A DNA stretch of 64,000 nucleotides from Endobacter medicaginis. GTDB lineage: Bacteria > Pseudomonadota > Alphaproteobacteria > Acetobacterales > Acetobacteraceae. The notes beneath the pieces were generated by a model. That model was not told where the DNA came from. It searched no databases and saw only the letters and a program-made list of their open reading frames with translations. Where the stretch lies: contig NZ_JACHXV010000010.1 of NCBI RefSeq assembly GCF_014192375.1, forward strand, positions 1 to 64,000. Reading direction: 5' to 3'. The translations under genes and the position numbers were made by a program. Of the stretch, positions 36,390 through 55,766 are shown piece after piece. The stretch's first letter is position 1, and each line of letters opens with the position of its first letter.

Positions 36390-36549
36390 CCGCCCAGCCG
36401 ATCCGCCCCCATGAGCATCGAATGGGACCGTTATAGCAGACCGACTTACAAACCGTTAACGACACGACACGGGATCTTTCGTTGCCGGGACATCACAAGT
36501 GCGATTGCGCAGGGCGGCGATTTCGTCCAGTGTGACAGGGTCTGGATCA

Positions 36550-36783
36550 GCCTGCGCGGGAGAGCGCAGATGGTTCTGCCGCCGAAGGCGCAACCGGCCC
36601 CGGAAACGCTCAGGCCACAGGACCGCGCGGGCCAGTGTCCGAGCATGCCGAGAGGCCTGCGCGGACACCCACGACCTCTGGAAAGACCCCCCGGCCCGCC
36701 GGTGCGGGTCACCGACGGAGAAAGGAGCCTTTCCCCTTGCCAGGGGTTTACGGCTCCGAATCTCTCAGGTTCCGTGACAGAGG
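36550..36783 (+). ncRNA. Tandem glycine riboswitch
   Basis: Two aptamers lie in series upstream of gcvT. Aptamer 1 (36550-36632): P1 arms GCCTGCGCGG and CCGCGCGGGC enclose GGGAGAG, GCCGAAGGCGCAA and CGCTCAGGCCACAGGAC. Aptamer 2 (36675-36783): P1 arms CCTCTG and CAGAGG enclose GGAAAGACC, CACCGACGGAGAAAGG and CTCTCAGGTTCCGTGAC. These are the conserved core motifs of gcvT-type glycine riboswitches. The linker holds a 7-bp hairpin GTGTCCG/CGGACAC. Glycine binding should switch on the cleavage-system genes downstream. Confidence 0.95.
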
Positions 36784-36787
36784 GGGC

Positions 36788-36849
36788 CGTCCGTCGTTCT
36801 CAAGGCTGCCGCCCGATGCGGTGGCTACGGACGTCCGGGCGGAGCCTTG
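36788..36849 (+). promoter_or_regulatory. Candidate expression platform of the glycine riboswitch
   Basis: A strong stem with arms 36801-36815 (CAAGGCTGCCGCCCG) and 36836-36849 (CGGGCGGAGCCTTG) has one bulge and a 20-base loop, ending eight bases before GGAG and 19 before the gcvT ATG. A segment just upstream, CGTCCGT (36788-36794), can pair with ACGGACG (36827-36833) in that loop. No U-tract follows, so control may be at translation or by Rho. Confidence 0.55.
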
Positions 36850-36868: not shown

Positions 36869-38092
36869 ATGACCGCATATCCTTCCGAATCGACCGGCGA
36901 GACCGGGCTGCGCTCCGATGATCTGGTGATCCCGGCCGGCGTGCCCGATGATACCGACCCGACCGGGGCGCTGACCGGCCCGGCGACCCTGCCGCTCGAC
37001 GCGTTTCACCGGGCGCACGGCGGCAAGATGGTGGATTTCGCCGGCTATGCGCTGCCGGTGCAGTACGGCGCCGGGGTGATGGCCGAGCACCTGCACTGCC
37101 GCTCCCGCGCCGTGCTGTTCGACGTCTCGCATATGGGCCAGGCGCTGCTGCACGGCACCGACGCCGCCGCCGAACTCGAGAAGCTGGTGCCGTCCGACAT
37201 TCTCGGACTGAAGGATGGGCGACAGCGCTATTCGGTGCTGCTCAACGAGGCCGGTGGCATCATCGACGACCTGATGATCGCGCGGCTGTCAGCAGACCGG
37301 ATGTTCCTGGTGGTCAATGCGGCGCGAAAGGCGGTGGATTACCGCCACCTGGAAACCGCCCTGCCCGGCTCGGTGCGCCTTGAACCGATGTTCGACCGTG
37401 CGCTGCTCGCCCTGCAGGGACCGGGGGCGGCCGCGGTGCTCGATCGGCTCGGTGTGGCGACGTCGGAGATCCCGTTCATGGGGCTGGCGGAGGCACTGGT
37501 GGGGGGCATTCCGGTCCAGCTCACCCGGGGCGGCTACACCGGCGAGGACGGGTTCGAGCTCTCGGTCGCCTCCGACCGTGCGGAGACGCTGGCCGAGACG
37601 CTGATCGCCGATCCGGAGGTCTTGCTGGCGGGCCTGGGCGCGCGCGATTCACTGCGCCTCGAAGCCGGGCTGTGCCTGTATGGCAACGACATCGACGAGG
37701 TGACCACCCCGGTCGAGGCGTCGCTGAACTGGGTGATCGGCAAGCGCCGCCGCGAGGATTTCGCCTTCGAGGGCGGTGTGGTGGTGCGCGACCAGCTCGC
37801 CCACGGCGCGCCGCGCCTGCGGGTCGGCCTGCGTCCCGAGGGTCGGGCACCGGCACGGGCCGGCACCACCATCGTCGCCGCCGACGGAACCGAGGCGGGC
37901 ATCGTGACCTCCGGCACGTTCGGCCCCTCCGTCGAGGGGGGCGCGCCGGTGTCGATGGGCTATCTGCGCCGCGACCTGATCGAGGCGGGCGACATCTCGC
38001 TGCTGGTGCGCAATCGCGCGATTGCCGCCCGCCGCGCCAGCCTGCCCTTCGTCAAGCACCGTTATTTCAGCGCCAAGTCGGCGAAAGCCTGA
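36869..38092 (+). CDS. gcvT: Glycine cleavage system T protein (aminomethyltransferase)
   Basis: Transfers the methylene group from aminomethyl-lipoyl GcvH to tetrahydrofolate, releasing ammonia. It has 407 residues. The family core starts at LPLDAFHRAHGGKMVDFAGY (about 42), with VLFDVSHMGQ, the folate-site region LTRGGYTGEDGFELS (about 215) and LCLYGNDIDEVTTPVEA (about 268). About 38 residues precede the usual family start; no other in-frame start with a ribosome site exists (GGAG is eight bases before ATG 36869). First of three glycine-cleavage genes under the riboswitch. Confidence 0.96.
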   Translation: MTAYPSESTGETGLRSDDLVIPAGVPDDTDPTGALTGPATLPLDAFHRAHGGKMVDFAGYALPVQYGAGVMAEHLHCRSRAVLFDVSHMGQALLHGTDAAAELEKLVPSDILGLKDGRQRYSVLLNEAGGIIDDLMIARLSADRMFLVVNAARKAVDYRHLETALPGSVRLEPMFDRALLALQGPGAAAVLDRLGVATSEIPFMGLAEALVGGIPVQLTRGGYTGEDGFELSVASDRAETLAETLIADPEVLLAGLGARDSLRLEAGLCLYGNDIDEVTTPVEASLNWVIGKRRREDFAFEGGVVVRDQLAHGAPRLRVGLRPEGRAPARAGTTIVAADGTEAGIVTSGTFGPSVEGGAPVSMGYLRRDLIEAGDISLLVRNRAIAARRASLPFVKHRYFSAKSAKA

Positions 38093-47183: not shown

Positions 47184-47609
47184 TCAGCGCCGCAATCCGG
47201 ACTGGATCGGCGAAATCGTGCCCGGCGCGCTGAGATTGGCCCCCGGCGCCGGCGAACTTTCGCCATAGGCGGTGCCGAACGGGGCGATGAAGGCATCGGT
47301 GTTGGGATCACGCCCGTTGCCGGGCTGCCAGCCATGATAGCTGTAGGCGTGGTCCTCGAATTCCGGAACCACGCGCGCGGCGTCGGGGGCGGGTGCGAGC
47401 CGGCGCTGGCCGTGCACCACCAGGCTTTCCTGCATCACCGTGACCGGGCCCGAGATCGGGCGTGAGAGCGGGCCGCCATCAGGGGCGGCCAGCGCCGGCG
47501 CGATGGCGCCTGCGGCGCAGATCAGCACGATGGCGGGCAGCGCTTTCGGCAGACGGGCCTCGGTGTCGATGTCAGCAGGACGACAGGGGACCACACACCG
47601 CACCGGCAA
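47184..47609 (-). CDS. Small exported protein, TTG start
   Basis: A 141-residue protein with a signal-like segment (ALPAIVLICAAGAIAPALAAP) after a longer-than-usual N-terminal region. The mature part is Pro/Gly-rich without a recognisable fold (VTVMQESLVVHGQRRLAPAPD; YSYHGWQPGNGRDPNTDAF). The start is TTG at 47609 with AAAGGA seven bases upstream. It lies 22 bp after the P450 gene as the last unit of the TPP-riboswitch operon. The function is unknown; the role in that operon is uncertain. Confidence 0.55.
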   Translation of the reverse strand: MPVRCVVPCRPADIDTEARLPKALPAIVLICAAGAIAPALAAPDGGPLSRPISGPVTVMQESLVVHGQRRLAPAPDAARVVPEFEDHAYSYHGWQPGNGRDPNTDAFIAPFGTAYGESSPAPGANLSAPGTISPIQSGLRR

Positions 47610-47631
47610 TGCGAGTCCTTTCGCTGTCGGT

Positions 47632-49016
47632 TCAACCGCGCAGCAGCGGACGCAGGCGCAACGGGGTGGCCGGGCGCAGGGTGATCGCCATGCGTGGCGC
47701 CGGCGTGGACGGATCGGCCGGCACGAAGCGCAGCCGGGCCAGCAGCACGGCGAGAATCGCCATTCCCTCCAGCATCGCGAACCCCGCCCCGATGCAGACG
47801 CGCGGCCCGACGCCGAACGGCAGCCAGGTATAGCGATGCCGGGAAGCGACGCGCTCGGGCAGGAAACGGTCGGGGTCGAACTGCCCGGGTTCGTCCCACA
47901 GCCGCCGGTGGCGGTGCACCGCCCAGATCGGCACGATGATCGTCGCCACCGGCTCTACCTCGAGCCCGCCGAGCCGCTCGAGCGCGAAGCCGTCCTGTAC
48001 CTCCCGGCCGATGATCGGCGCCGGCGGGAACAGCCGCATGCCCTCCTCCAGCACCCGGCGCGTCAGGACGAGATGCACCAGGTGCTCCGGCAGCACGCAG
48101 CCACCCCGGGTGACGGCATCGATCTCAGCCGACACCTCCGCCATCACCCGCGGATGCCGCGCCAGCAGATCGAGCGTCCAGCCCAGCGCCTGCGCGGTGG
48201 TCTCATGGCCGGCGGCGACGAAGGTGATGAGATTGTCGACGATCTCCGAATCGTCCATCGCCCGGCCGCTCTCCGGATCGCGCGCGTCGAGCAGCCGGTC
48301 GAGCAGGTCACCGCGTTGCGCCCCGCCGGCCGCGAGTTCGTCGCGACGCCGCGCCAGCATCGCCATCAGCATCTCGCGCAGGCGCCGCGCCGCGCGTCGC
48401 GCGCCGGTGCGGTCGGGGTGCGGCTCCAGTCCGGCAGGCCAAGGATCGCGCCGGCCATGCTCCACCCGGTCTGTTCGAGAAAGCGCGTCACCGCGCGCAA
48501 GACGAACCCGGTGTCGATCCCCGCCACGGCCTGGCCCGACAGCATGGTCTCGATCAGGATGTCGTAGGTCAGGCGCATCATCGCCGCGTCGATCGCCACC
48601 ACATCCCCGGCCTGTGCCGCGAGCGCGTCGGCGGCGCGGCCCGCACAGGCCAGCATGCGCGGTGCGAGGCTGTCGGTGGCCTGCGGACGGAAGGCGGCGG
48701 CCATCGCCTGACGCTGCCAGCGCCAGTGCGCGCCATCGGCGGTCAGCAGCCCCTCGCCCACCGCCGGGGTGAGAGCGCGCAGCATCGCATCGGACTTGCG
48801 CAGGCGTCCGGCATGGGCGCTCAGCGCCTCCTGGATCGCCGCCGGGTCGCTCAGATAGAGCACCTGCTGGCGCCCGACGCGGACGATATGAGCGCCGCTG
48901 TCATAGATCTCGGGCGGCAGGGCGGCGATCGGGTTGCGCACCGTGTCGACGAAGCTGCGCAGCAGGCGCAGCGGATGATGGCCCTCGAGGCGCGTGATGA
49001 CGGGCGCTCCGGTCAT
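47632..49016 (-). pseudogene. Cytochrome P450, frameshifted
   Basis: Two overlapping frames together make one P450. The N-terminal part (ATG 49016 to about 48385) runs through LPDWSRTPTAPARDARRG and then hits TGA. The C-terminal part continues in the next frame (RLREMLMAMLARRRDELA) and carries the I-helix AAGHETTA, ExxR (EEGMR) and the heme-binding loop PFGVGPRVCIGAG. The total 1385 bp is one base short of a full frame, and the shift lies in a repetitive GCGCGGCGCGGCGCC stretch, so a single-base deletion or a sequencing error explains it. Its start overlaps the DUF72 stop (ATGA). Substrate unknown. Confidence 0.85.
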
Positions 49017-49753
49017 GCGGCGATCCTGGACTGCAGCGCGAGGGCGGCGGCGGGATTGCGCTCCTTCGCGCCGGCGATCACGAAGGCATGCACACGCCGC
49101 CCCGCGGGACGGGCGAGATCGCGCAGCCGCACCGCCCAGGCATCGAGCGCGGGCGCGTCATAGCCGGTCTCGATCTCGGCATGCGTGCCCTGGAGGCGCA
49201 GATAGACATGCGGCGCCGTCGGCCGGTCGGCAGGCGCGACGCCCGGCTTGTCGAGGATCACCCGCGCGATGCCGCGCTCACCCAGCAGCGCCTCCGCGGC
49301 GTCGAAGGAGGGATGCGCCGCCTCGATGGCATGGCGCAGGGGCAGCCCGTCGAGCGTGTCCGGCAGCAGGTCGAGGAAACGGCTGAAAGCGTCGGCGTCG
49401 AAGACCCGCCCGGCCGGGAGCTGCCACAGCAGCGGGCCGAGCTTGTCCCCCAGTTCGGCGAGCCCGGAGTGCAGGAACCGCTCGATCGCCGGGGCGGCCT
49501 CCGCTGCCTCGCGGCGCTGGGCAGCACCTCGGGCGGCCTTGACGGCGAAGACGAAGCCCTCCGGCACCGCATCGTGCCAGGCGCGGAAGGTCTGCGGCGT
49601 CTGGGTGCGGTAGAAGGTGGCGTTGATCTCGGTCGCCCCGAGCCGCCCGGCCATGTAGGCCAGCGCGCCGGACTTGCGCACGTCCTTCGGATAGAAGGTC
49701 TCGTGCCAGGGCGCGTAGTCCCAGCCGCCGACCCCGATGGTGATCGGACCCAG
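49013..49753 (-). CDS. DUF72 protein, apparent CTG start
   Basis: A 246-residue TIM-barrel-like protein of the DUF72/YecE family. From CTG at 49753 the N-terminus reads ITIGVGGWDYAPWHETFYP after the first residues, the normal family start; conserved EINATFYRTQ and FVFAVKAARG follow. No ATG, GTG or TTG lies between the upstream in-frame stop (about 49795) and the conserved region. The CTG has a strong GGAGGA five bases upstream. An internal ATG at 49681 would cut off the GWDY segment. Family function is unknown. Confidence 0.8.
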   Translation of the reverse strand: MGPITIGVGGWDYAPWHETFYPKDVRKSGALAYMAGRLGATEINATFYRTQTPQTFRAWHDAVPEGFVFAVKAARGAAQRREAAEAAPAIERFLHSGLAELGDKLGPLLWQLPAGRVFDADAFSRFLDLLPDTLDGLPLRHAIEAAHPSFDAAEALLGERGIARVILDKPGVAPADRPTAPHVYLRLQGTHAEIETGYDAPALDAWAVRLRDLARPAGRRVHAFVIAGAKERNPAAALALQSRIAA

Positions 49754-49792
49754 TTCGTCCTCCCCTGCCCTGCCTTGCGCAACGGCGCCGTT

Positions 49793-50752
49793 TCAGGGCG
49801 TCGCGGTATAGTCCGCGACCGGCACGGTGCGAGAGATCGCGCCCTGTTGCAACAGGAACGACGCAAAGCGCTCGTAGCGCGTCCGGTCGAGTGCGCCCGG
49901 ATCGTCGGCCAGCAGCGGCAGTGTCGCGGTCCAGGCGGCGCGGTTGAGCGGGCTGCGCAGCTCGGCGTGATCGGCCTCCATCGCGGCGCGGATGCGCTCC
50001 GGATTGTCGCGCAGCGCGCGCGTGCCCTCGGTGAGAGCGAGAGTGAAGCGGTGCAGGCGCGGATCGGCCGCCCGGTCGCGCCGGGCCACCAGGATCAGCT
50101 CGTCCCAGGCCGGCACGCCATACGCCTCCGGGTCGAAGGCGCGCGGCGACGCACCGCGCAGGGCGAGATCGACCTGCTCGTAATTGCGCATCGCGCCCAT
50201 GATCGCATCGAGCTGGTGACCGAGCAGGGCGGCCTCGAGGTCGAAGGTCAGCGGGATGGCATGGACATCCGTCAGTTTCAGCCCCGCCGAGGCCAGGAGG
50301 CCGCCCAGCAGGGCTTCGTCGGTGCCGCCGATCGAGATGCCGATCCGCCGGCCGCGCAGGTCGGCGACGTGGCGGACCGGGCCGTTGCCGAGCACCAGCA
50401 GCGTATTGAGCGGCCGGGCGACGAGGCTGGCGATCCGGGCCAGGGGTACGCCCTCGGCGGCGAGGATCTGCAGCTGCGGCTGATAGCTGACCGCCAGATC
50501 GGCCTGACCGGCGACCACCATGCGCGGCGGCGTGTTCGGATCGGCGGGCGGGGTCAGCTCCACCGCAAGGCCCTGGCGTGTGAAGGCACCGCTGTAATGG
50601 GCGGCAAACAGGGCGGCATGGTTGGCGTCGACGAACCAGTCGAGCAGCACGCGCAGGCTGTCGGTCGCGCGCGCAGGCGGCGCGCCCAGCACCAGCGCCG
50701 CACCCGCCCCCAAGGCCTTACCCAGCGCCATCCTGCGCGAAAGCTGTCTCAT
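49793..50752 (-). CDS. Thiamine-precursor-binding protein, ThiY/NMT1-like
   Basis: A 319-residue exported binding protein of the NMT1/THI5-like group. The twin-arginine-like start (RQLSRRMALGKALGAGAALV) is followed by DWFVDANHAALFAAHYSG (about 40-57) and QADLAVSYQPQLQILAAEG, the motif set seen in ThiY proteins that bind formylaminopyrimidine. It starts one base after the TonB-receptor stop, under the TPP riboswitch at 53083. The permease (ThiX) and ATPase (ThiZ) genes expected beside it are absent here. Precursor specificity is by family. Confidence 0.85.
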   Translation of the reverse strand: MRQLSRRMALGKALGAGAALVLGAPPARATDSLRVLLDWFVDANHAALFAAHYSGAFTRQGLAVELTPPADPNTPPRMVVAGQADLAVSYQPQLQILAAEGVPLARIASLVARPLNTLLVLGNGPVRHVADLRGRRIGISIGGTDEALLGGLLASAGLKLTDVHAIPLTFDLEAALLGHQLDAIMGAMRNYEQVDLALRGASPRAFDPEAYGVPAWDELILVARRDRAADPRLHRFTLALTEGTRALRDNPERIRAAMEADHAELRSPLNRAAWTATLPLLADDPGALDRTRYERFASFLLQQGAISRTVPVADYTATP

Positions 50753-53080
50753 CTAGAAACCTGCCGATGCGGTGATCATCGCCGCGAAACCACCGCCGAT
50801 ATAGAAGGTCGGCGCGCTGCCGGCGACGGTGCTGCCGTCACGCGCCGCAGTATCGAGCGCGTTGGAGGTCGGGCTGGCAATGCCCGAGCGGAAATGGGCG
50901 TCGGTGAAGTTCAGCACATTCAGCCTGAGCTGCGGTCTGACCTCGCGGCCGGCGAGGCGGCGGGGATCGAGGCGCCAGCCCAACGCGATGTCGCCGGTGG
51001 CGCGGCCGGGCAGACGCTCATCGTTCATGAAGGTCGCATATTGCCGGCCGACATACTTGCCGCCGATGCTGCCGAACAGCCTGCCATCGTCATAGGTGAG
51101 CGAGGCGGCAAGCTGCACCGACGGACTGCCGACCGCGCGCTTGCCCGCCGTCGGCAGAACCTGCTCGCCAGTGGTGAAATCGTTGTCCATCGTCGCGTGC
51201 AGGTATTCGGCCGAAACATACGGGCTGACATGATGCCAGGGCTTCGTGCCGAGCTCGATATCGACGCCGCGAGAGGTCTCGCCGCCGGCATTGACGGTCG
51301 CACCCACCAGGGCCCCGTTGAGATCGATGACGGTGGCGACCTGATGGTTGGTGAGGTTGGCGTTGAAGAACGCGATCGATCCGATCAGCCAATCGCCGCT
51401 GTAGCGGTAGCCGAACTCCTCGCTGATCGCATATTCGCGCCGCAGATCGGTATTGGCGGCAGAGATCACCTCGCCGGAGGACGGGTCGTACACGTCGAAC
51501 AGCGTGCTCTGCGCCGGTGTCCGGAAGTTCGTTGTCGCGCTGAGGAACAGTTGATGCCGCGCGGTGATCTGCCAGCGCGCGCCGATGCGCGGCAGCGGCG
51601 CGGAATCGGTGATCGAGCTGCGATACTGCGGGCCCGGCAGATGGTTGGTGCCGTCGCGCGTCACCCAGGCCTGCTTGAATCCCGCCTGCAACGTCAGCGA
51701 GGTTCCGGGAACCGTCCATGTGTCGCCGACGAAGATCATGTTGATGCGAGTGATCGTGCCGGTGTCGGACGCCAGCAGCGCGCGTCCGTCCGGGAGCAGC
51801 ACACGGGCGTTGGCGGCGTTGTCCCAGGCATTGCCAGGCGTGCCATCGTCGCCGATCAGGCCGAAGCTCTGACGGTCCTGCTCGTGGTCGTACTCGCCCC
51901 AGTATCCGAGCACGAAGCGATGTCCGCGCCAGCGCCAGTCCAGCGAGGGACGCCAGCCGGTCCGGTATTGCTGGCCCGTGTAGTTGCCCACCACGTTGGC
52001 CTGTCCATCCTGCGCGCCGGGGATGTCGAGCGTGTAGGGCAGCGCCTCGGCGCCCTGGAACAGCCCCGAGGTGGCGATGGTGGTGCCGCCGGGCGAGTTG
52101 CCGTAGCCGAACTGGAAATACGGTGTTGCATGCAGCGATATTGCGGAATTGACCCGCAAATCCGACGGCGCGCTGAGATAGATCAGGTGATAGGTGCCGG
52201 CATAGAGCTTCCAGTAACCTGTCCCGCCGGTGGCGTAGTCGCCGGCATAGTTGTCCTGCCCGCCAATGCCGTCGGCATGCCACTGATCCGCGGTCACTTC
52301 GGGGTAGGAGGAGGTGTAGGCATCGTGATAGGTGCCGGCGAGCGCGATACGGGTGCCCTCGCCCCATTCGCGCACCGCCTTGAAGTCGACATGATCGCGC
52401 CAGTCGCGTCCCGGTCCGCGCCAGTTGTCGGCCACCGTGTGCGAGTAGGAGAGAAACGCACGGATACCCGACGCGCCGAGGGTGCCGGTATCGGCACGGG
52501 CGAACACCCGCTGGGCGCGATAGGTGCCGTAGGAATACGAGACCTCGCCGCCCGGACGGGTGGCCGGATCGCGGAAGCTGAGCGTGAGCAGGCCGCCGGC
52601 GGCGTTGACGACGGGCGAGTCGAGATCGGCCGCCCCTTGTGCGAACGAGACCGAACGCAGGTTCTCGCTGTCGGCGAATTGCGACGGATAGCCGTTGTAG
52701 TAGCCCATGTCGCCAAGCGGCATGCCTTCCAGCACATAGCCGATCTGGTCCTGGGTGAAACCGCGCACGGTGATGGAGAGCTGCTGCGACAGGCCGTACG
52801 GGTCCGACATCGCCACATTCGCCCCGGGCAACCGGGCCACGAGCTGGTAGGCGTTGAGCGTCGGGGCGGCGCGCTCGATCGCCGCCTGCGAGACGGTGCT
52901 GACCGAGCGGGTCTCCGTCTGCGGCAGGATGTTGCCACCGCCCGCCGCATTGGCGAGCGAGCCGGTGACGACGATGTTCTGCGTGGTGGTGGCAGGCTTC
53001 TTCCTCGGCGGCTCGGCGAGAGAGGACCGCGCGACACAGAACGCAGCAGACAGGACAAGAAGCGGGCGCAGTAAGGACAT
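50753..53080 (-). CDS. TonB-dependent outer-membrane receptor under TPP control
   Basis: A 775-residue outer-membrane receptor. A signal peptide (PLLVLSAAFCVARSSLA), the TonB-box/plug region (TQNIVVTGSLANAAGGG, then LVARLPGANVAMSDPYGL), and a 22-strand-like barrel to a C-terminal Phe (ITASAGF) are visible. ATG 53080 has GGGAG five bases upstream, inside the 3' end of the riboswitch. Because a TPP riboswitch precedes it and a ThiY-like protein follows, it likely imports thiamine or a pyrimidine precursor (compare predicted thiamine receptors of the omr1 type). Confidence 0.9.
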   Translation of the reverse strand: MSLLRPLLVLSAAFCVARSSLAEPPRKKPATTTQNIVVTGSLANAAGGGNILPQTETRSVSTVSQAAIERAAPTLNAYQLVARLPGANVAMSDPYGLSQQLSITVRGFTQDQIGYVLEGMPLGDMGYYNGYPSQFADSENLRSVSFAQGAADLDSPVVNAAGGLLTLSFRDPATRPGGEVSYSYGTYRAQRVFARADTGTLGASGIRAFLSYSHTVADNWRGPGRDWRDHVDFKAVREWGEGTRIALAGTYHDAYTSSYPEVTADQWHADGIGGQDNYAGDYATGGTGYWKLYAGTYHLIYLSAPSDLRVNSAISLHATPYFQFGYGNSPGGTTIATSGLFQGAEALPYTLDIPGAQDGQANVVGNYTGQQYRTGWRPSLDWRWRGHRFVLGYWGEYDHEQDRQSFGLIGDDGTPGNAWDNAANARVLLPDGRALLASDTGTITRINMIFVGDTWTVPGTSLTLQAGFKQAWVTRDGTNHLPGPQYRSSITDSAPLPRIGARWQITARHQLFLSATTNFRTPAQSTLFDVYDPSSGEVISAANTDLRREYAISEEFGYRYSGDWLIGSIAFFNANLTNHQVATVIDLNGALVGATVNAGGETSRGVDIELGTKPWHHVSPYVSAEYLHATMDNDFTTGEQVLPTAGKRAVGSPSVQLAASLTYDDGRLFGSIGGKYVGRQYATFMNDERLPGRATGDIALGWRLDPRRLAGREVRPQLRLNVLNFTDAHFRSGIASPTSNALDTAARDGSTVAGSAPTFYIGGGFAAMITASAGF

Positions 53081-53082
53081 GG

Positions 53083-53166
53083 AACTCCCTTCGCCGGCAT
53101 GACCCGGATCAGGTTCGACGGGTGTGATCTCAGCCCGCAATTGCGGGCACCCCGGTCATGGGAGAT
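53083..53166 (-). ncRNA. TPP (thiamine) riboswitch
   Basis: On the minus strand the conserved thi-box elements appear in order: CCGGGGTGCCCGC, GGGCTGAGATCACACCC, GAACCTGATCCGGGTCATG, CCGGCGAAGGGAG. The AAGGGAG end is the ribosome-binding site of the TonB-receptor gene, and an upstream CTCCC (53161-53165 region) can pair with it. So binding of TPP should sequester the site and block translation. Confidence 0.96.
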
Positions 53167-53228
53167 GCTTTCGACATATTTCCGACGTGGGTCAAGCCCG
53201 ATCGCGCGTCGACAGCGAGGTGGACCTC

Positions 53229-54346
53229 ATGAGACAGCGACGCCTGGGATGGTTGATCTTGAGCATCGGCGCTGTGCTGAACACGAGCACCCCGGGTCGA
53301 GGCGAAAACGCTCCCATCGACGGCCACCCACTGTTTCAGCCCTCGACGCTGAAGCGCGAGGGCCTGAGCCAGCCCAACCGCGTAATTGTGGTCGGCAGCA
53401 TCCATCTCTCGAGCCTGCCGGCTGACTTCGACCCTCGGCGCCTCGACCCCTTGCTGGACCGGTTGGCCAGTTGGCAGCCCACGGCGATCTCGATTGAAGC
53501 ACTCCCCGGTCTGCAATGCGATGCCATGCGACGCTACGCTTTCCCTACGCCAGTTCTGTCGGCAGGTACTGCGCCGACCCGACGCCCGCGGCGCACAGCA
53601 CGGGATTGGATGTCGCGAGTGCCACGGCCGAGGTCGAGCGGGCGCTCGCCGACTGGCCAGCCGAGCCAGGCCCGCAGCGCCGCCGCCATCTTGCCGCGCT
53701 GTTTCTCGCCGCCGGTGATCCCGCCTCGGCGATGGTGCAGTGGCTGTCGTTGCCAGGTCCCGAACGCCACGCAGGCGACGGTCTCGACGATCCGCTCGTC
53801 ACGCAGCTTCGCCAAGGCGAAAACAAGCGCGACGAGACGGTACTGGTGGCGGTGCGTCTCGCGGTGCGTCTGGGGTTGCAGAGAGTTTGGCCGGTCGATG
53901 ATCACACCGCCGACTCCGACACGCCCCTCGACACGCCGGGCGATGCCCGGGCTTACGGCGCGGCGTTGAGTGCGGCCTGGCAGAACCCGGCAAATCGCGA
54001 GCGCGCGACGCAGGAAGCGCGCCTGATCGCGGATATCGACGGGCCCGACGGGGTGCTCGCCCTGTATCGCGCCCTGAATGCCCCTGGGATGGGGATGGTG
54101 GTTTATCAGTCGGATTTCGGCGCCGCACTGCGCGAGCCATCACCGCAGGGCTACGGACGCCAATATGTCGGCTACTGGGAGACGCGCAACCTGCGTATTG
54201 CGGCCAATATCCGCGAGATCGTCGGTCAACACCCGGGAATGAGGCTGATGTCATTGATCGGCGCCTCGCACAGGCCCTATCTGGAGGCCTATCTGGACCA
54301 GATGCACGACGTCAGTCTCGATGACGTCGAGGCACTGCTGCACTGA
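53229..54346 (+). pseudogene. DUF5694-like (TraB-type) exported protein, frameshifted
   Basis: The N-terminal part (ATG 53229, signal-like LGWLILSIGAVLNTSTPG, then NRVIVVGSIHLSSLPADFDP) is in one frame. It runs on meaninglessly after QCDAMRRYA. From about 53535 the next frame carries SSVGRYCADPTPAAHSTGL and the conserved end NLRIAANIREIVGQHPGMRL and IGASHRPYLEAYLDQM. The 1118 bp is one base short of a full frame; the slip is at TTTCCC around 53538. It is divergent from the TPP riboswitch. The family is TraB/GumN-related, function unknown. A sequencing error is an alternative. Confidence 0.7.
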
Positions 54347-54349
54347 CGA

Positions 54350-55039
54350 TTAGAAAAACAGCAGCCCCGGCCGCGCAAGCGCCGCACACGCACGGCGTAG
54401 GGGATGTGGCACCCAGGCGGGCAAGAAGGTGCAGCCGGTGTGCTCGATGACGCTGTCGCTGCCTTCCCAGATCAGTTTCAGCGCCACGTAGAGCACGATC
54501 AGCAGGCCGATCCAGGCGATCCAGCGATAGCGGTCGAGCAGACGGGCGATGGCATTGGCGGCAACCCCCATCAGCAGCACCGAGACCGCGAGACCGGCGA
54601 CGAGCACATATGGGTGGTCATGGGCCGCCCCGGCGACGGCAAGCACGTTGTCGAGGCTCATCGACAGATCGGCGAGCACGATCTGGGTGATCGCCGCGCG
54701 CAGGGTCTTTTTCGCCGGAATGCCGGTCGGGTCGGGCGCGGGCGAATGGCGCAGTTCGCGATACATGCGCCAGCAGACCCACAGCAGCAGCAGCCCGCCG
54801 GCGAGGGTCAATCCGACGATGGCAAGCAGGTCGAGCGCGACCAGGGCGAGCGCGATCCGGATGATCGCCGCGAGGATGACGCCGAGCGCGATCGCGCGTC
54901 GTTTCTGTTCGACCGCCAGCCCCGCCACCGCGAGCCCGACGACGACCGCGTTGTCACCGGCCAGTACCAGATCGATCGCCAGCACCTGCCCCAGCGCGAT
55001 CAGGGAAGGCCAGATCTCGGGGCCGACCAAACCTGACAT
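54350..55039 (-). CDS. TerC-family membrane protein
   Basis: A 229-residue inner-membrane protein with about seven helices. The two family signatures are visible: DLVLAGDNAVVVGLA (about 20) and ADLSMSLDNVLAVAGAA (about 125). Related YjbE/TerC proteins export metals, often manganese. No yybP-ykoY riboswitch is found upstream. ATG 55039 is preferred over TTG 55057, which has no ribosome site; spacing for 55039 is not ideal. An AT-rich hairpin repeat separates it from tenA. The stop lies 3 bp from the DUF5694-like stop (convergent). Confidence 0.85.
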   Translation of the reverse strand: MSGLVGPEIWPSLIALGQVLAIDLVLAGDNAVVVGLAVAGLAVEQKRRAIALGVILAAIIRIALALVALDLLAIVGLTLAGGLLLLWVCWRMYRELRHSPAPDPTGIPAKKTLRAAITQIVLADLSMSLDNVLAVAGAAHDHPYVLVAGLAVSVLLMGVAANAIARLLDRYRWIAWIGLLIVLYVALKLIWEGSDSVIEHTGCTFLPAWVPHPLRRACAALARPGLLFF

Positions 55040-55062
55040 TCCTGCCCCCGGGCTCAAACGGA

Positions 55063-55103
55063 CAAAAGTCTTTTTGCTTCTTTTTCCTCAGAAAAAGAAG
55101 GTC
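55063..55103. repeat. AT-rich hairpin repeat, copy 1
   Basis: Perfect 10-base arms CTTCTTTTTC (55077-55086) and GAAAAAGAAG (55091-55100), with flanks CAAAAGTC and GGTC. It begins one base after the tenA stop and so probably terminates that operon. The element is the inverse of copy 2 at 57418-57457. Confidence 0.85.
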
Positions 55104-55766
55104 CTATGCCGCCCCCGTCCAGAACGCCGCCTCGAGCCGCGAGGCGGTGGTGAACTCCGCGAGCAGGATCTCGTAGCGCGCCTCCGCCCCGAGCCTCGCG
55201 CCAAGCGCATCGAGCGCGTCGGCCTCCTCCTCGGCGATCGCCTGGTAGTCTGACCCGGCATAGGTGTTGATCCAGGACGCATAGGGATGGTTCTCGACCG
55301 CGCCGCGCTCGCGCAGGCGGTCGCCGATCTCGGCATAGCCCATCACGCAGGCGCTCATCGCCACCATCAGGTCGAGCGCGTCGCCCGACAGGCCACGCTC
55401 GATGAGGAAGCGGGTGTAGGCCAGGGTGGCCAGTGTCTCCGGGGTGGCGGCCATCTCGGCCTCGGTCATGCCCCATTCGGCGCAGAGCGAGACGTGCAGC
55501 GCCGCCTCGACATCGACGATGGTGCTCATCGAGCGGGCGGCGCGGCGCATGCCGGCGAGGTCGGGCGCCTTGTAGGCGGCGAGCGCGTAGGCGCGGGCAA
55601 AGTGATTCAGATAGAGGTAGTCCTGCACCAGATAGGCGCGGAAATCCTCGCGCGGCAGGCTGCCATCGCCGAGCGCGCGGACGAACGGCGCGTCGATATA
55701 GCTCTTCCAGACCACGCTCGCATCGTGGCGCAGGCGGCCGAACAGGCCGCGTTCCCAAGGTTTCAT
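55104..55766 (-). CDS. tenA: Aminopyrimidine aminohydrolase / thiaminase II, TenA
   Basis: A 220-residue helical enzyme that hydrolyses aminomethylpyrimidine from degraded thiamine to HMP for reuse. Active-site residues visible are Asp49 in VQDYLYLNHFARAY, Glu in CAEWGM and the nucleophile Cys140 in MSACVMGYAEIG. ATG 55766 has GGAGAG upstream and overlaps the glycosyltransferase stop (ATGA). The nearby TPP riboswitch, ThiY-like protein and TonB receptor fit a salvage pathway, though TenA is in a different transcription unit. Confidence 0.93.
   Translation of the reverse strand: MKPWERGLFGRLRHDASVVWKSYIDAPFVRALGDGSLPREDFRAYLVQDYLYLNHFARAYALAAYKAPDLAGMRRAARSMSTIVDVEAALHVSLCAEWGMTEAEMAATPETLATLAYTRFLIERGLSGDALDLMVAMSACVMGYAEIGDRLRERGAVENHPYASWINTYAGSDYQAIAEEEADALDALGARLGAEARYEILLAEFTTASRLEAAFWTGAA

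Follow-up and report, generated by a model that had tools for sequence, protein, structure and literature searches.

Salvage of thiamine precursors by ThiXYZ and TenA, TonB receptors regulated by TPP, and pyrimidine auxotrophs that lack ThiC have all been described previously (PMC545781, PMC5613172, PMC10881298, PMC12442306, PMC10470507). In Rodionov et al. 2002, as relayed in PMC545781, ThiXYZ is presented as an ABC transporter that takes up HMP/FAMP. The TPP-regulated TonB receptors designated omr1 or OMthi have been proposed to provide the outer-membrane step in the uptake of B1 or its precursors (BT2390, PMC5613172; omr1, PMC10881298 and PMC12442306), and a pyrimidine salvage route composed of ThiV and TenA is found in Pelagibacterales without ThiC (PMC10881298).

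Here, we have analyzed a 64,000-nucleotide stretch of the Endobacter medicaginis genome (hereafter the window, on contig C10) together with the rest of that genome and a set of 249 genomes of the family; the relatives named below are Acetobacteraceae. It is very likely that the window locus encodes those components of a ThiXYZ/TenA pyrimidine salvage system that act at the outer membrane and in the periplasm, the parts of the system being split over two loci. Similar to ThiXYZ, this system has ThiY, ThiX and ThiZ parts, a TPP riboswitch over ThiY and a link to TenA, whereas ThiX and ThiZ are encoded on a different contig, where they have no riboswitch and adjoin an APH-family kinase gene, and the gene next to ThiY is that of a TonB receptor. 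As with omr1/OMthi, the TonB receptor comes straight after a TPP riboswitch; however, OMthi works with PnuT and thiamine, while the receptor examined here shares an operon with a ThiY of the pyrimidine type, and most genomes with this arrangement have no ThiC. The ThiV-TenA route likewise combines TenA and a precursor transporter under TPP regulation with ThiC as the only loss, and it uses a sodium symporter rather than an ABC system and a TonB receptor. Neither a TonB-ThiY operon in Acetobacteraceae nor its link to ThiC loss was found in the open literature, subscription papers lying outside the search.

The riboswitch and the genes around it

The proposal of an earlier note, that a TPP riboswitch lies upstream of a TonB receptor and a ThiY-like protein, was confirmed (Table 1). 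With 67.7 bits, the aptamer clears the gathering score of 54.3 and is the sole TPP riboswitch in the genome (3.6 Mb, 100% complete). This call is based on the covariance model, since the aptamer was not recovered when the leader was folded by MFE (z 0.33); a promoter scan gave no match. In the window, the ATG of the receptor gene is 5 nt past AGGGA, a conserved stretch in the core of the aptamer, and an in-frame receptor start is found 3-10 nt past AGGGA in those leaders of relatives whose core was located by script, which suggests that the ribosome-binding site is buried directly in the aptamer and that control would be translational. The window also contains a tandem glycine riboswitch (36547-36790) 5′ of a 407-aa ORF (36869-38092), the usual layout of glycine cleavage genes.

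Table 1. Coordinates of the features at the window locus and at the pump locus of the same genome (G000).
Feature	Position	Strand	Remarks
tenA, Cys-type aminopyrimidine aminohydrolase	55104..55766	-	PF03070, 159.1 bits; TIGR04306, 142.6 (cut-off 130)
terC	55057-54350	-	between tenA and riboswitch
TPP riboswitch aptamer (RF00059)	53069..53164	-	covariance model
TonB-dependent outer-membrane receptor	50753..53080	-	PF00593 and PF07715 above cut-offs
ThiY-type periplasmic pyrimidine-precursor binding protein	49793..50752	-	PF09084 (NMT1/THI5-like), 165.8 bits
DUF72 protein	49013..49753	-	CTG start proposed; co-directional neighbour
Cytochrome P450 in two frames	47632..49016	-	ORFs 49016-48366 and 48465-47632
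Small ORF, signal-like N-terminus	47184..47609	-	no family match
ThiZ (ATPase)	G000:C1:61454-62266		2 nt upstream of permease gene
ThiX (BPD permease)	G000:C1:62269-63018		ATPase-permease pair spans C1:61454-63018
APH-family kinase	G000:C1:63042-64157 (L032:7043-8158)		23 nt downstream of ThiX

On the minus strand, the riboswitch is followed by the genes for the TonB receptor, ThiY, the DUF72 protein, the P450 and the small ORF, with gaps of less than 45 bp; the ThiY gene abuts the receptor gene with no gap, and the position of the last three genes 3′ of ThiY agrees with the earlier note. TonB receptor domains directly downstream of a TPP riboswitch are the hallmarks of the omr1/OMthi type, and a similar role is proposed for this receptor, whose sequence gave no matches in a PDB search. 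For ThiY, the best PDB match is 3ix1, the FAMP-binding protein of B. halodurans (E 8.6e-32, compared to 1.6e-12 for THI5). Its N-terminus carries a twin-arginine-like signal (SRRMAL), and residues W39, H45, G134, G138, E192, G212 and P214 are invariant in all 61 family members and kept in 3ix1. Residue 42 is D in the window protein and N in 3ix1 and 59 of the 61 homologs; given this substitution and a long branch in the ThiY tree (0.82), the specificity of the window ThiY may have drifted.

The TenA protein exceeds the cut-off of TIGR04306, a curated salvage model, and its C140 and E212 are invariant across 7 sequences. Although tenA is indeed about 2 kb from the locus, it lies upstream of the riboswitch, behind terC and a DUF5694 gene on the opposite strand (between terC and the riboswitch, split over two frames at ~53540), and therefore the riboswitch does not control it.

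The pump genes and their distribution

No permease or ATPase gene adjoins ThiY in the window, and ThiX and ThiZ had been thought to be missing because one locus was viewed alone. By listing every BPD permease in the genome, we detected orthologs of both on contig C1. Orthologs of the C1 permease (53-68% identity; next group no more than 41%) are present in 61 of the 249 genomes, and the genomes with homologs of ThiY (40-53% identity) are these 61 and no others, a co-occurrence that extends over 22 genera and whose counts track phylogeny as well as function. The two genes are within 10 kb of each other in 33 of these genomes and unlinked in 28. Most linked genomes show the order riboswitch-ThiZ-ThiX-ThiY or riboswitch-ThiY-ThiZ-ThiX, with a TPP riboswitch preceding many of them, and TenA adjoins ThiZ in six genomes (G052, G248, G178, G055, G131 and G218). 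In addition, G048 and G079 possess a single cluster, ThiZ-ThiX-APH-TonB-ThiY, in which the genes of the C1 locus are joined to those of the window locus. The C1 pair is assigned as ThiZX because of its co-occurrence with ThiY, the linkage in relatives and these joined clusters. The genome thus encodes a cognate permease and ATPase, and ThiY is on C10 while ThiZX is on C1, which is not a linked thiXYZ operon; since 28 of the 61 genomes are unlinked, linkage does not define the ThiXYZ system in this family. A TPP riboswitch was searched for at the ThiZX-APH locus on C1 and is absent.

The earlier idea that the binding protein borrows another permease holds insofar as the permease is encoded elsewhere. 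The pump is not taken from an unrelated system, because its orthologs adjoin ThiY as operon partners in relatives, and a borrowed unrelated pump was rejected on this ground. We infer that ThiY would pair physically with ThiXZ. These results give an orphan ABC pump and a TonB receptor a predicted function, and they indicate that a pump called missing from a single locus needs a whole-genome check. In another genome (G180:C53:1-9000, L222), three ThiY fragments flank ThiZX and an intact TonB-ThiY is present elsewhere, as if the old ThiY beside the pump had decayed.

In 17 genomes belonging to 8 genera (the window genome and 16 others), the TonB receptor gene is located ahead of ThiY, with the two genes approximately 3 kb apart in one of them (G245), and there is no recurrent gene directly 3′ of ThiY in this group. 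On the ThiY tree, well-supported branches require no fewer than three changes of the arrangement, and therefore it has been gained or lost repeatedly. ThiC is absent from 16 of the 17 genomes with TonB-ThiY, 18 of the 44 other genomes with ThiY and 35 of the 188 without ThiY, counts that are uncorrected for kinship. Many acetic acid bacteria and their relatives are thus predicted to rely on other organisms to provide the pyrimidine half of B1, which would enter via a specific outer-membrane receptor.

Thiamine pathway and the imported compound

A family search for ThiC, which matched 13 of 14 controls, gave no match in E. medicaginis, whereas family models detected ThiG, ThiE (plus a second ThiE), ThiD and ThiL, and ThiO and ThiS are ORFs beside ThiG. 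Because ThiC is absent and ThiO, ThiS, ThiG and ThiE are kept, the thiazole half appears to be made by the cell and the pyrimidine half to come from outside, and E. medicaginis is predicted from its gene content to be a pyrimidine auxotroph. The earlier proposal of salvage of the thiamine pyrimidine under a TPP riboswitch, with TenA, is strongly supported by the riboswitch, the identity of ThiY, TenA and the loss of ThiC. Another TonB receptor gene (L219:636-3035, on contig C2) is found a few kb from thiOSGE and has no TPP riboswitch.

In the salvage system that we favor, pyrimidine uptake would be needed because the cell has no ThiC. At low cellular levels of TPP, the riboswitch would permit synthesis of the TonB receptor and ThiY. 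The receptor may then carry the scarce pyrimidine, either HMP or aminomethyl/formyl degradation products, over the outer membrane, and ThiY would act as its periplasmic binding protein. The precursor would be pumped inward by ThiX and ThiZ, whose unlinked locus is free of riboswitch control, where TenA could convert aminopyrimidine forms to HMP by hydrolysis. HMP would be phosphorylated by ThiD, and ThiE would couple the product to the thiazole derived from ThiO, ThiS and ThiG, leaving the last step to TPP to ThiL.

The least explained part of the system is the APH-family kinase, because with ThiD present a pure pyrimidine route does not account for it. It adjoins ThiX in four genomes (G000, G048, G079 and G127), in all of which the catalytic motifs are kept; a PDB search with its sequence returned no matches, and no description of such a kinase beside ThiX was found in the open literature, subscription papers being outside the search. 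One explanation, which we regard as unlikely, is that intact thiamine is imported and that this kinase, acting like enterobacterial ThiK, phosphorylates it to the TMP used by ThiL. The adjacency of the kinase to ThiX would fit such a role, as would the presence of ThiL, the lack of a match to the TPK model (TIGR01378) and the known role of OMthi, a TonB receptor type under TPP regulation, in the uptake of thiamine (PMC5613172). However, the kinase gave no meaningful alignment with E. coli ThiK (E 0.17), the missing TPK is weak evidence since TIGR01378 is likewise without a match in half of the control genomes, and the best PDB match of ThiY is a protein that binds FAMP. Moreover, the retained ThiO, ThiS, ThiG, ThiE, ThiD and Cys-type TenA are needed only if the pyrimidine is the import. 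More tentatively than the salvage reading itself, we suggest that the TonB arrangement could be a dedicated outer-membrane route for the thiamine pyrimidine in Acetobacteraceae that marks the loss of ThiC, and that the previously unassigned APH kinase of its gene set could phosphorylate the pyrimidine or thiamine as it enters the cell; this is possible, though on balance doubtful. The analysis also flags this kinase family.

Downstream genes and less probable readings

The DUF72 protein and the P450 had been suspected of processing a thiamine derivative. In favor of a role in modifying such an imported compound, they follow ThiY on the same strand, with near-zero gaps and with no terminator-like site found between the genes, and together with the small ORF they may share a transcript with the riboswitch operon. 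Nevertheless, none of the 60 other ThiY regions contains a match to the DUF72 protein, the P450 or the small exported protein, so that the recurrence of TonB receptor-ThiY-DUF72 in relatives, proposed as a check, was not observed. Furthermore, a frameshift at around 48.4 kb, in a GC-rich run, interrupts the P450 reading frame, and the genes from TenA to ThiL already complete the pathway. A part for DUF72 and P450 in processing the import is accordingly very improbable and was rejected, and all three genes are probably not part of the salvage system. The frame splits in the P450 and DUF5694 genes may represent either decay or sequencing error. As for the DUF72 gene, no ATG, GTG or TTG start was found 5′ of its conserved N-terminus; the best candidate is a CTG at 49753 with a strong GGGGAGGA ahead, which may be the start.

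It has also been considered that ThiY might use another ABC pump, e.g., one with the SsuC-like permeases encoded on contigs C4 and C5, and that the C1 pair serves a different substrate. Such permeases are indeed present, with NMT1-type binding proteins near them, but this means that each already has a partner of its own, whereas no binding-protein gene is found near the C1 pair. Considering also that only the C1 permease matches the ThiY-linked permeases and that its co-occurrence with ThiY is complete, this reading is highly unlikely, slightly more so than a role for DUF72 and P450. Finally, the NMT1 protein belongs to the same Pfam family as THI5 and ThiC is missing, yet its identity as a bacterial THI5-type HMP-P synthase replacing ThiC was rejected and can practically be dismissed, as THI5 is a cytosolic enzyme that requires a cysteine-rich motif at its active site, while the window protein contains zero cysteines, bears an export signal, matches 3ix1 far better than THI5 and belongs to a family found constantly with the pump (61 of 61 genomes).
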